DNA from: a virus
Virus record (IMG/VR): IMGVR_UViG_3300021420_000115
Span: 1 to 25,371 of that record
Length of the DNA: 25,371 nt
Direction: 5' to 3' (one strand)
The translations under genes and the position numbers were made by a program. Below the pieces are notes generated by a model. The model was not told where the DNA came from and made no database searches. It saw only the letters and a list, made by a program, of their open reading frames with translations. This document shows positions 16,193 to 20,071 of the stretch, one piece after another. How positions within the stretch are numbered: position 1 is the stretch's first letter; the number at the start of each line of letters is the position of its first letter.

Positions 16193-17398
16193 TTATTCCG
16201 CACGTTTATCTATCCATCGATAGATCTTTTCCTTGGTTTGCAAATTGTACTGCACCGAGATGACACCCATTTGCTCTAACGTCCGCTCTATCTCTAACAA
16301 GATGTTCGCGTCGAGGTCGCGGTGAAACTTTGCTAGCACTGCACTTCTGGTTGTAATCTTCAAGCGTTCGATATAGTTGAGAATCTTCTCTTGTGAGTCG
16401 GAGTGTTTGTATTTGCCAAGCCCTCCAAACGTGTAGCCCATTTTGCGCTCAGCAAACGTTAGAATCTCTACAGCTCTGTGAAAGTCGTTGTGGTCAATCA
16501 CTAAATCGTCACGCTTGCTAGCGGATAGAATCATCGCGAGCTTCCTAATGTGGGTCGCACGTCGCTCACAATAGGCTGCGAACCGAGGATCTTCGACTGC
16601 GGGCTGACCAATGGAAATTAGATGTTCCTGCTCTGTGTACCACTCTTCATAGCACTTGCTACCGTCAGAACTGAACGTGAATTGACCTTTAAGTTGACTT
16701 ATCTTCTCGAGATCTCGTTCGAGAATATGTTCTAAATCTGTCTCCTCTGAGGTGAGTTGATGCTTCGGTACGATCTTACCCTTGTTCTCCTCCACGATAA
16801 AGATACAACGTGAAGTGAAACCGCCGCCTATTGCCTCGGTAGGTAACATTGACTGGATCCACTCAGGAGCGGTAGCTCCTAGCAAGTTGAAGCATAGCCC
16901 CTCAAGCGAATCTCTACCACGACCGACTGTCTCATATGTCCACACACTTTTGCTATCATACCAGTCGCACAAATTTGCTAGGAGCTTCACATCGGATTGC
17001 CCTAGTAGGACTGATAGCTCCTCACTAAACGATGTGAGCGAGCAGTGAATTTTCACTTTTCCCGTGGTGGGATCTTCGTAGTTTGAAATTGCCCTCTTCA
17101 TGGCTAGGATCATCGATTCTCTGGTACACGATTCAGCTGCGACCGATACTCCCGGAATATTTAGCAATAGATTCTTTGCGATCCCGAGCGCTACACCCTT
17201 CCTTGCCTTTCCTGCAGGTCCCACTAATATCACGTACAAATTGGGATAGAGGTGTTCGAATCCCCAAACTAGTTTTACTTTACGTTGCAAGGCTCCCGCT
17301 AGCAATGAGATGCCAGCCCAAGTGTGAAAAGTTTTGGATGGCTCAGAGTTTTGAACATAAGTGAGGTAGCCATCCAGGAAATCAGATAATTCCCGCAC
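16193..17398 (-). CDS. DUF3987-like replication helicase/primase protein
   Basis: A 401-residue protein. The GTG at 17398, one base after the polymerase stop, is chosen because the ORF upstream of it merely overlaps polymerase coding sequence. The N-terminal region (FHTWAGISLLAGALQRKV) leads to an unusual P-loop, GPAGKARKG (60-68), as in DUF3987-type proteins that replace DnaB or primase in many phages and plasmids. Later motifs are SLTSFSEELSVLLG (Walker B/sensor-like) and GRGRDSLEGLCFNLLGATAPEW. The C-terminal 70 or so residues look like a winged-helix domain (ILNYIERLKITTRSAVLAKF). Placement right after polymerase in the operon supports DNA unwinding or priming. The P-loop lacks the usual GKS/T ending, so ATPase activity is expected from the family rather than proven. 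Confidence 0.68.
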   Translation of the reverse strand: MRELSDFLDGYLTYVQNSEPSKTFHTWAGISLLAGALQRKVKLVWGFEHLYPNLYVILVGPAGKARKGVALGIAKNLLLNIPGVSVAAESCTRESMILAMKRAISNYEDPTTGKVKIHCSLTSFSEELSVLLGQSDVKLLANLCDWYDSKSVWTYETVGRGRDSLEGLCFNLLGATAPEWIQSMLPTEAIGGGFTSRCIFIVEENKGKIVPKHQLTSEETDLEHILERDLEKISQLKGQFTFSSDGSKCYEEWYTEQEHLISIGQPAVEDPRFAAYCERRATHIRKLAMILSASKRDDLVIDHNDFHRAVEILTFAERKMGYTFGGLGKYKHSDSQEKILNYIERLKITTRSAVLAKFHRDLDANILLEIERTLEQMGVISVQYNLQTKEKIYRWIDKRAE

Positions 17399-17399
17399 T

Positions 17400-18854
17400 C
17401 TATGGCTCTTTGTATTCTCCCATTCCACCAGGATTATTTTCAGAGTGATAACCACCCCAGTTCGATCCTATTTTCGAATCGGTCGCTATTTTGAATCGCC
17501 GATTGTTGTAGCATAGTTCTGGAGTCACATAGTCATACACTCGTTGTTTTAGCTTCGAGAAGTCATCGCTCTCAAAGATCGAAATTGGAAGTTGCATCAG
17601 GATCGAGTCATGAACTTGTGCCAGTAAATCTACCCTGCAGATCTGGGTTATCCACTCGTCGTTGTAGATCTTAACCATTCCCTCGTTTAACGAGTCCACC
17701 ACTGTCGATTGAGGTAAGCAGCTATACGCAGCTTTCCACAAATCAGGACCCCATGCGTCCATGAAGCGAACCTTCCTACCAAAACAATTAACCAGTGCAC
17801 GCTCTTTTTGAAGTTGCCGTTTAATAAACTCATACCAGATCCTAATTCCCGGATAGATGTTGTGATACATCTCAACGATTATCTTAGCTTCGCTTTGCTC
17901 CATTTCGTTAATCAGCGCGAATTGGTTAGGACCTTCGTCGTAGTTCAAACCGTGGTTAGACTTTTTCCCGCATTGCCTCATCGACATCGTTCGAGGGAGG
18001 CGAACGCTAACGTCGCCGTCAACCCTTAACTTTGAGATAATGTCTGGATCAGTGTTATTTCCAACCAGCTTGTTTTCCAGCACTATTAACTCCGCTGGTT
18101 GGTGGAACATTAGGGAAGCGGTGTGAACGTGGGTGTCGAGACCGCTCTCCACCACGGACAACATGTTAGCGTCTCCAGAGAGATAGGCTACAACCACCCA
18201 CTCGGCTTGCCGTTTATCTACTTCCCAGAGAATATATCCTGGATCCGCAACCAGGAACTTCTTGAATTCTTGAGGGAGATTCTGTTGGTTGGTGCCAGTA
18301 CCGAAAATAGTTTTACTGGAGGATAATCTCCCAAACTTCGTACCTCTAGGATTATACGAACAGCGCATTCTCCTGTCGGAGTCAAACTCAATATCAAGGT
18401 ATGTTCCGAATAACTTCTGGAGCCCCCGAATATCTTGGACAAGCTTTGCCTGTCGTAACCCAGGCCGCTTAGCAGTGGGACGAGCGAGTCGCTGGAGAGC
18501 CGTATCGTCCACTGTAATGGCTCCGTCGTTATAGTAGGGGGTGATACCGAGTTCGACGTAGAAATATTTTTGGCAATCTTTGGAGGAGTTGACATTTAGT
18601 GATCGTCCACACAGTTTATCAAGCTCGGCTTGTTTCAGTTTTATCGATTCGCTGATCTCTTGCTTGGTAACCTCCATAGCGTCCATGTTAACCGCTATGC
18701 CGTGAGTCATCATAAACACAAGAGGATCAAGTAAACGGATGGTTAGATCGTATGCTGGTTGGAAACCGTCAGCTAGGTCAGGCCATATCTCATTGTGTAT
18801 CTGCATCATGCAAGCAGCGTCGAGGCAGTTGTAACGCAGAAAATTGCTGTCCAC
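17400..18854 (-). CDS. Family A DNA polymerase (begins at motif Exo III)
   Basis: A 484-residue protein. GTG 18854 is chosen because GGAG lies six bases upstream, one base after the preceding stop; a TTG at 18866 would add four residues. It opens with RYNCLDAACM, which is motif Exo III (Y8, D12) of a 3'-5' proofreading domain, so the front of that domain is missing and lies in the gene at 19055-20071. Polymerase motifs follow: GRLSSSKTIFGTGTNQQNLP, motif A (VDKRQAEWVVVAYLSGD, D213 and E218), motif B (GKKSNHGLNYDEG) and motif C (QVHDSILMQLP, H415-D416-S417). Motif C has Ser where Glu is usual, and motif B has His at the position of E. coli Phe762. Catalytic aspartates are intact, so it should be the phage replicative polymerase. 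Confidence 0.88.
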   Translation of the reverse strand: MDSNFLRYNCLDAACMMQIHNEIWPDLADGFQPAYDLTIRLLDPLVFMMTHGIAVNMDAMEVTKQEISESIKLKQAELDKLCGRSLNVNSSKDCQKYFYVELGITPYYNDGAITVDDTALQRLARPTAKRPGLRQAKLVQDIRGLQKLFGTYLDIEFDSDRRMRCSYNPRGTKFGRLSSSKTIFGTGTNQQNLPQEFKKFLVADPGYILWEVDKRQAEWVVVAYLSGDANMLSVVESGLDTHVHTASLMFHQPAELIVLENKLVGNNTDPDIISKLRVDGDVSVRLPRTMSMRQCGKKSNHGLNYDEGPNQFALINEMEQSEAKIIVEMYHNIYPGIRIWYEFIKRQLQKERALVNCFGRKVRFMDAWGPDLWKAAYSCLPQSTVVDSLNEGMVKIYNDEWITQICRVDLLAQVHDSILMQLPISIFESDDFSKLKQRVYDYVTPELCYNNRRFKIATDSKIGSNWGGYHSENNPGGMGEYKEP

Positions 18855-18855
18855 A

Positions 18856-19053
18856 CTAATCTCCAACCACAGAATCGATTTCTAGTTTGATTCGAACAAC
18901 TGTTCCAGCAGGTATATAGGGTGTGAAGACCAGTAATGCCTGCTCATTATTCAGAACCTTTACAGTTAAAGTTTCTCCCAGCCGAATACGTGGTGGAGCT
19001 TCTGGTGGAGCTATCCACTCAGTAACGTGAGTTACTACATCATCTCTCCACAT
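18856..19053 (-). CDS. Small ORF interrupting the exonuclease-polymerase frame
   Basis: A 65-residue protein from ATG 19053, with GAGG seven bases upstream; a second in-frame ATG at 19065 has a badly placed site. It is made of short strands (TLTVKVLNNEQALLVFTPYI; TVVRIKLEIDSV) with a Pro-rich turn (APPEAPPRI), like a small beta-barrel. It has no relation to exonuclease sequence, yet it sits exactly between motif Exo II (previous gene) and motif Exo III (next gene). It is spaced 1 base from each, in a frame different from both. No homing-endonuclease, intein or intron feature is visible. Function unknown; perhaps a polymerase accessory subunit. Confidence 0.6.
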   Translation of the reverse strand: MWRDDVVTHVTEWIAPPEAPPRIRLGETLTVKVLNNEQALLVFTPYIPAGTVVRIKLEIDSVVGD

Positions 19054-19054
19054 G

Positions 19055-20071
19055 CTAAGCCTCATCCTTGATGTTCTGAAACTTCACAAGATCCTTCCAG
19101 AACTCCTGATTTTCACAGTACAACGATCCTAGAAAATCAAGACCCTTTCGTAGTTCAGGATATTGCACAGAGTGTGCTATCATGGTATCGTGGATCGGTC
19201 CACGTACCACGATACCACACTTCATCAATAGGAATTGTATATCGAAGATTGAGTTTTGTACTACTTTAATCGAGCGCTCGTTGCCCAACACCCTTTGGAT
19301 TCCTAGCCAAATGTGTACTTCCTCTTCGAGTGACCACCTTCCGCTTAGCGGAATCGATACCGCTCGAGAGGGATCATCGCTAAACGCGATACAAGCAATT
19401 TCGAAGTTCACAACTTCGATGTCAAAGCCCACGATGGGAGCTTCTTCAAAGTAGCGTAGCCATTCCAAGCACTCACTCAAACTCGAGAAATCATAGACCA
19501 GCTGGCGCTTGGGCCGGCGTAGCTCTGGGAACAAGCTCTCGGCTTTGGCTTTCTTGAGATCGGCGGCGATTAGGTGCCGATAGATATACATGCCCTGCAA
19601 GGCAGCGCTAGGATGGATACAGGGCACCAGCTTTTTACAATTGACCTGTGGCAGCGGTTCCCATACGTAGCCCCGATATTTGAGGATCTTACTCTGCCCG
19701 GTGAGCGCCGAAAAAGCTGTGGCACCGCAAGCCACCAGCACGTTTGGAGATAGCTCGTTCAGCTCATCATAGAGAAACTCTACCCATTCGCGCCCAGCTT
19801 CCGAAAATCGATTCTTCGGTCCGTCGAAGTATGGTAAAATCTTGTTATCGGGAGGTTTAACCTTCACCACGTTCGTTATGTAGACTTCTGAACGAATGAT
19901 GCCAGCGGCGTGGAGGCATTGTTCTAACACGCTACCAGCTGGACCAACAAAGGGCTTTAGCTGTGCTGCTTCGTAAGCTCCCGGTGCCTCTCCCACGATT
20001 ACAATCTTGGCGTCTTTAGGACCGACACCAGGAACAATTCGTGCTCGCTTGTCGAGTTGTAGGAAGTCCAT
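19055..20071 (-). CDS. Uracil-DNA glycosylase fused to N-terminal half of DNA polymerase 3'-5' exonuclease
   Basis: A 338-residue protein. ATG 20071 follows the methyltransferase stop by two bases and has GAGG upstream; the longer frame only overlaps that gene. Residues 1-180 are a family 4-type uracil-DNA glycosylase: GEAPGAYE (27-34) with PFVGPAG (40-46), TNVVKVKPPDN (66-76) and HPSAAL (153-158). The cysteines that hold the Fe-S cluster in family 4 are absent from the expected places (LDKR at the start; NVVKV instead of NVVKC). Residues 190-338 are a DEDD exonuclease with Exo I D217-I-E219 and Exo II N273-x3-D277, but no Exo III, which begins the polymerase gene. A glycosylase joined to phage polymerase domains is known in some phages; here the chain breaks mid-exonuclease. 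The two gene products probably assemble. Confidence 0.82.
   Translation of the reverse strand: MDFLQLDKRARIVPGVGPKDAKIVIVGEAPGAYEAAQLKPFVGPAGSVLEQCLHAAGIIRSEVYITNVVKVKPPDNKILPYFDGPKNRFSEAGREWVEFLYDELNELSPNVLVACGATAFSALTGQSKILKYRGYVWEPLPQVNCKKLVPCIHPSAALQGMYIYRHLIAADLKKAKAESLFPELRRPKRQLVYDFSSLSECLEWLRYFEEAPIVGFDIEVVNFEIACIAFSDDPSRAVSIPLSGRWSLEEEVHIWLGIQRVLGNERSIKVVQNSIFDIQFLLMKCGIVVRGPIHDTMIAHSVQYPELRKGLDFLGSLYCENQEFWKDLVKFQNIKDEA

Follow-up and report, generated by a model that had tools for sequence, protein, structure and literature searches.

A viral family A DNA polymerase with its proofreading exonuclease divided between two genes

How is a DNA polymerase to proofread when the catalytic residues of its 3'-5' exonuclease are encoded by two genes, and what placed a further small gene between them? 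These questions arise from a viral record 25,371 bases long, called the window here in its entirety. We propose that the two flanking genes encode a two-subunit proofreading polymerase whose active site is built in trans, a reading to which we assign a probability of about 0.78; the complex itself and its exonuclease activity are what we infer.

Three minus-strand genes, in three different frames, follow one another in the window sequence with 1 base between neighbors. Gene 1 (19055..20071, from an ATG at 20071 to a TAG at 19057-19055) encodes 338 amino acids that comprise a domain of the uracil-DNA glycosylase (UDG) fold and the first ~130 residues of a 3'-5' exonuclease, as evidenced by Pfam and PHROG profiles. 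Gene 2 (18856..19053, from an ATG at 19053 to a TAG at 18858-18856) is an orphan open reading frame (ORF) of 65 amino acids inside the split; an alternative start, the ATG at 19065, overlaps gene 1 and gives 69 amino acids. Gene 3 (17400..18854, from a GTG at 18854 to a stop at 17400) encodes a family A DNA polymerase of 484 amino acids that starts ~7 residues before Exo III, with an alternative, overlapping start at TTG 18866. The spacers are the single bases 19054, between genes 1 and 2, and 18855, between genes 2 and 3. A preliminary description of the locus had placed a glycosylase with Exo I and Exo II in the first gene, the polymerase start at about Exo III (RYNCLDAACM), a 65-residue ORF in a third frame with one-base spacers between the two, and a ribosome-binding site ahead of each downstream gene. 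All of this is borne out by the sequence, and Pfam agrees on the domains. Downstream, a DUF3987 primase/helicase-like gene identified by domain profiles (16193..17455, minus strand) overlaps the end of the polymerase gene. Its order relative to the polymerase is the same in three relatives (L002, L003, and L004; L-numbers label relative loci throughout), and it probably forms one operon with the split polymerase genes.

The UDG superfamily domain (19595..20032, minus strand) matches PF03167 at 4.7e-25 over residues 45-190 of gene 1, and its nearest solved structures are family 4 UDGs (3e-23 against UDGs in the PDB). The window protein lacks the N-terminal C-x2-C of family 4 UDGs ahead of its first motif; a C-x2-C is present in L010 and L011. 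In L003 and L004 the first UDG motif is eroded and the UDG part looks degenerate. Judging from these motifs, the UDG domain of the window, L003, and L004 may be structural rather than catalytic.

The exonuclease profile DNA_pol_A_exo1 (PF01612, 3.5e-7) matches gene 1 with its N-terminal part, about positions 9-131 of 173. Its last ~30 positions fall in the polymerase gene, where they are seen weakly in L003, such that no single polypeptide of the window carries a whole DEDDy exonuclease domain. Gene 1 also matches positions 476-788 of the phrog_17 DNA polymerase profile. Gene 3 is identified as a family A polymerase by PF00476 (2e-37), by the motif A aspartate (18216..18218, minus strand), and by the motif C His-Asp (17607..17612, minus strand), and its residues 11-266 align with Klenow 173-431. 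The DEDDy motif set (D-x-E, N-x3-D, and Y-x3-D) is complete and divided over the two genes: Exo I, D217-I-E219 (19415..19423), and Exo II, N273-x3-D277 (19241..19255), lie in gene 1, and Exo III, Y-N-C-L-D (18819..18833), lies in gene 3, all on the minus strand. We take the Y and D of Exo III to be the counterparts of Y497 and D501 of E. coli Pol I, based on the alignment and the known numbering. One of the catalytic metals of Klenow is coordinated by D355, E357, and D501.

Relatives and the age of the cut

Relatives were collected from viral and bacterial contigs and annotated phages, giving 148 distinct loci after the removal of duplicates, and were sorted by profile searches on stop-to-stop frames. 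Most outer relatives carry UDG, exonuclease, and polymerase in a single open frame; these dozens of fused loci, which include Desulfofustis phage LS06 and Microcystis phage Mel-JY34, support the proposal, made in the preliminary description, of a single-chain glycosylase-exonuclease-polymerase ancestor. A further 37 distinct loci for which both halves are available, one of them the window, share a single cut position that separates Exo II from Exo III. Not counted here are the distant Caulobacter phage Kuura and the L010 record, whose cut falls after Exo III. The split loci include contigs of a bacterial metagenome-assembled genome. When the junction is aligned with fused relatives, the halves meet without a gap or overlap, and no domain is missing or extra. 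The halves stand in the same order and are seamless, as in genes split by homing endonucleases; the gene between them in the window is an orphan and not a recognized endonuclease.

The metagenomic source of the window invites the suspicion of an assembly or sequencing error, a refutation that the preliminary description had itself named. Independent samples gave the same architecture in 37 loci, and the frames flanking the cut are open and under selection, which excludes this explanation.

In a tree of 143 rows, all exonuclease-split rows except L128 group together with an SH-aLRT support of 99. The group has 38 rows, of which two are represented by the polymerase half only. A more careful tree of 61 rows gives the split clade a support of 100/99, with fused outgroups, and leaves L128 alone outside it in an unresolved fork. 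Forcing L128 in with the other split rows raises the log-likelihood by 2.4 (p-AU 0.59). Because placing all split rows together costs nothing in likelihood, a single fission can explain all of them, and that fission is old. The split is far older than the window's insert.

Other interruptions were seen in the family. A second clade of ~36 loci (L055, L057, L072, L088, and L138-L179) has a polymerase that is interrupted in the palm, immediately ahead of motif A, with gaps ranging from none (L169) to more than 3 kb that contain, as read by eye, lysozyme-like, ThyX-like, MazG-like, and unknown genes. A similar palm cut is found elsewhere in the tree, in a Vibrio phage (L012). The palm cut resembles the split of phages MEP401 and MEP402, discussed below, and appears to be independent of the exonuclease split. 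L010 (MW202554) presents a third cut site, after Exo III, and its gap holds an NrdR-type zinc-ribbon ORF (L010:2986-3137; PF22811, 2e-14). Polymerases of L086 (at profile positions 286-299), L131, and L132 contain in-frame insertions of ~300 residues that are probably inteins. Finally, in L053, near 4992, the polymerase frame changes at profile positions 72-86, which reflects either an error in sequencing or yet another place of cutting.

Conservation, fold, and expression of the two halves

Six exonuclease residues, four in gene 1 and two in gene 3 (the Y and D of Exo III), are kept in 37/37 split loci, as are the motif A aspartate and the motif C His-Asp of the polymerase. Across the split lineage no halves have been rejoined and no catalytic residue has been lost. 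Conservation of these six residues across two genes in every locus indicates that the active site, if it is used at all, is completed in trans; the preliminary claim of an active site built from two polypeptides was, by this inference, right. Purifying selection is strong in both halves, with a pN/pS of ~0.04 to 0.22 among the pairs listed, several of which are saturated at synonymous sites. Between the window and its sister locus, L014, identity is 0.89 in the exonuclease part of gene 1 and 0.74 in the polymerase.

Structural modeling was applied to L014, joined by reading through the TAG between its halves. The joined model (pLDDT 93.8, pTM 0.90) has Pol I and Klenow structures as its best PDB matches. 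Its sole internal stretch with a pLDDT below 50, residues 332-334, lies in the seam loop; the junction is at residue 340, and Exo III sits on the helix that follows (343-369). Modeled in this way as one chain, the protein shows a cut that sits in a predicted flexible loop and two parts that can complete one fold.

Might proofreading have been lost instead? Separate genes would permit a polymerase that is exonuclease-minus by itself, with proofreading lost or optional and the UDG-exonuclease protein serving in uracil or 3'-end processing, and the degenerate UDG part of L003 and L004 could be read in this light. We consider this improbable: in the polymerase gene the Exo III tyrosine and aspartate are invariant, although they would serve no obvious purpose in the absence of the other subunit, and the exonuclease part of gene 1 is conserved as much as the polymerase or more. 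The second refutation that the preliminary description had allowed for was a complete proofreading domain elsewhere. Such a domain, of the RNase_T family, is absent from 11 of the 12 records searched; the record of L017 has an extra DnaQ-type nuclease gene.

Even less probable, in our judgment, is that the halves are joined after all by a mobile intron, an intein, or recoding (frameshift, stop readthrough, or bypass). L014, whose halves share one frame with a lone TAG between them, would be open to readthrough, the related polymerase of SPO1 has an intron, and inteins are probable elsewhere in the family. However, Rfam gave no match for the window or for 18 further loci, which led us to reject a group I intron. 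A split intein was likewise rejected, as the halves have no intein extensions and their facing ends carry no residues beyond the exonuclease alignment. Programmed frameshifting or readthrough was set aside too, given that outside L014 the frames differ among loci and the inserts vary, some loci having none and others as much as 1.7 kb or as many as three ORFs.

A Shine-Dalgarno (SD)-like AAGGA (19065..19069, minus strand) in the final codons of gene 1 precedes gene 2, and an SD-like GGAG (18861..18864, minus strand) lies ahead of the polymerase GTG. An SD match of at least 4 nt is present in the gene 1 tail of 34 of the 37 split loci, and most of their polymerase starts are also preceded by one. 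In the gene 1 tail, the mean SD energy is -6.7 kcal/mol in split loci, and the corresponding position of fused genes averages -4.8 (p=4e-5, uncorrected for kinship). Because the fused codons at this place are already SD-like, part of the signal predates the split, and such codons may have made the site permissive for fission. As read from sequence, the pattern suits translational coupling of the two halves.

Contents of the gap and origin of the cut

The 65-amino-acid ORF probably represents a genuine gene. Of the six frames, its own is alone in having positive codon log-odds (+0.079 per codon, compared with +0.12 to +0.18 for the neighboring genes), and the chance probability of an open frame as long is ~0.03. 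No relative was found by Pfam, PHROGs, tblastn of 50,697 phage records, or a scan of viral contigs, and so the orphan is private to the window. In the sister locus L014, which is 77% identical, the TAG of gene 1 is directly followed by the polymerase ATG, with no insert. Altogether, six loci are split without an insert (L014, L110, L113, L115, L117, and L119), and four of these (L110, L113, L117, and L119) have a TAATG overlap at the junction.

Elsewhere the gap holds unrelated genes. HNH endonuclease genes occupy it in 3 of 37 loci; those of L002 and L004 are of the HNH_3 type, and that of L018 matches other HNH families. The last 11 codons of the L018 HNH ORF (L018:2089-2559) nearly duplicate the gene 1 tail (SVKFNDIKENS versus LVNFHDIKENS), and this ORF may have arrived together with its joint and ribosome-binding site, a trace of how such genes may move. 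In at least 12 loci, the gap encodes a protein of 46 to 67 amino acids with a C-terminal C-x-x-C, or a similar motif, plus acidic residues. These CPxC-like proteins (L003, L017, L018, L019, L021, L022, L026, L100, L102, L109, L111, L175, and L176), which may be one family or several, had no Pfam or PHROG match among those checked. A second family of small gap proteins is found in seven loci, and the gap of L094 contains, as read by eye, two genes, one MazG-like and the other helicase-like. The tree requires at least five changes in whether an insert is present and at least three in whether an HNH gene is. Given these repeated changes and the unrelated genes in the gap, we regard the window's orphan as cargo and not as the cause of the split. 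The preliminary description had held that insertion of the small gene broke the protein; this part does not stand, considering that the orphan is private to the window, its sister is split without an insert, and other loci carry unrelated genes.

What, then, made the cut? In the mechanism that we propose, a single-chain UDG-exonuclease-polymerase ancestor would have been cut once, in the loop that leads into the final helix of its exonuclease. The likeliest agent would be a free-standing HNH-type homing endonuclease gene, whose insertion there would have introduced a stop codon followed by another start. If an insertion did cause the split, a homing endonuclease is a likelier agent than the window's small gene; as the original cause it has, in our estimate, roughly even odds, and the presence of HNH genes in only 3/37 loci, where they may postdate the split, counts against it. 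A tentative competitor, which concerns the origin only and leaves the enzyme the same, is that a small change in the loop created a stop-start such as TAATG, with the insertion of genes coming afterward. The six loci split without an insert, several with the overlapping TAATG, fit such a beginning, as do the already SD-like codons of fused genes and the fact that not every early branch carries an endonuclease; less easily accommodated are the HNH genes found three times at exactly the place of the split and the inserts that most split members carry.

Under either origin of the two-subunit enzyme, two proteins would be made from one mRNA by translational coupling and would associate by way of the exonuclease fold. 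The metal site would then be completed in trans by the D and E of subunit 1 and the D of subunit 2, yielding a proofreading polymerase from two subunits. The gap now gains and loses small genes, homing endonucleases among them, the window's orphan being one such cargo gene that the split enzyme would not need. That the fission is adaptive, making the UDG-exonuclease a detachable proofreading subunit with fidelity set by subunit ratio, or with exchange of proofreading partners, seems to us unlikely; in other family A polymerases the active site stays within a single chain.

Comparison with known split genes

Split phage replication genes are known; the cut described here passes through a catalytic metal site, persists across a clade of at least 37 diverse loci, and is independent of the insert. 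The family offers a natural series (fused, split with an endonuclease, split with other cargo, and split without an insert) that is useful for asking what lets essential enzymes come through a fission and what keeps the halves unjoined. It might also provide a tool, namely, a polymerase to which proofreading is added or from which it is withheld via one protein.

The split form would be a two-subunit version of a known phage enzyme that joins UDG, exonuclease, and polymerase A. SPO1 gp31, PaBG gp205, and the LS06 protein carry these three domains, likewise ordered, in a single chain. The proteins of Bacillus phage SPO1 and Desulfofustis phage LS06 are homologous to those of the window, and the single-chain three-domain form has been described for Pseudomonas phage PaBG (PMC7412058). 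In the OM43 phages MEP401 and MEP402, a family A polymerase is split by a small ORF, for which an intron was suggested (PMC10580990). There, the cut lies inside the polymerase domain and the exonuclease is whole in the first ORF, whereas in the window the cut lies inside the exonuclease.

The cultured Caulobacter phage Kuura (OQ067476; L006:3207-6611) has a UDG-exonuclease gene, two small ORFs, and a polymerase starting shortly before Exo III. Kuura is distant (29% in the polymerase alignment, on a long branch), and its sequence suggests that its split is probably an independent fission. Its genes are annotated as hypothetical proteins and DNA polymerase, and a split goes unmentioned in the paper (PMC9959647); annotators may label gene 1 "hypothetical," as in Kuura, and so miss part of an enzyme. 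Being cultured, Kuura is useful for experiments. A cut of the proofreading site kept through a deep clade, while the insert was exchanged or lost, was not found in the open-access literature searched, which is weak evidence of its absence.

Close parallels also come from other split replication genes. In Aeromonas phage Aeh1, nrdA is split by mobE and its halves form an active enzyme; in T4-like phages 25 and 44RR, gene 43 is split into 43A and 43B, and the phage 25 polymerase halves form an active enzyme (PMC2988022). For phage 25 gene 43, the same doubt about origin has been raised, in that the endonuclease perhaps came after the split (PMC2988022). Like the window, these loci have an endonuclease or a spacer between the halves of an essential replication gene. 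They involve different enzymes, however, and the window's spacer is an orphan that is not an endonuclease. Also unlike them, the split of the window persists through a deep clade in which inserts have been replaced or lost.
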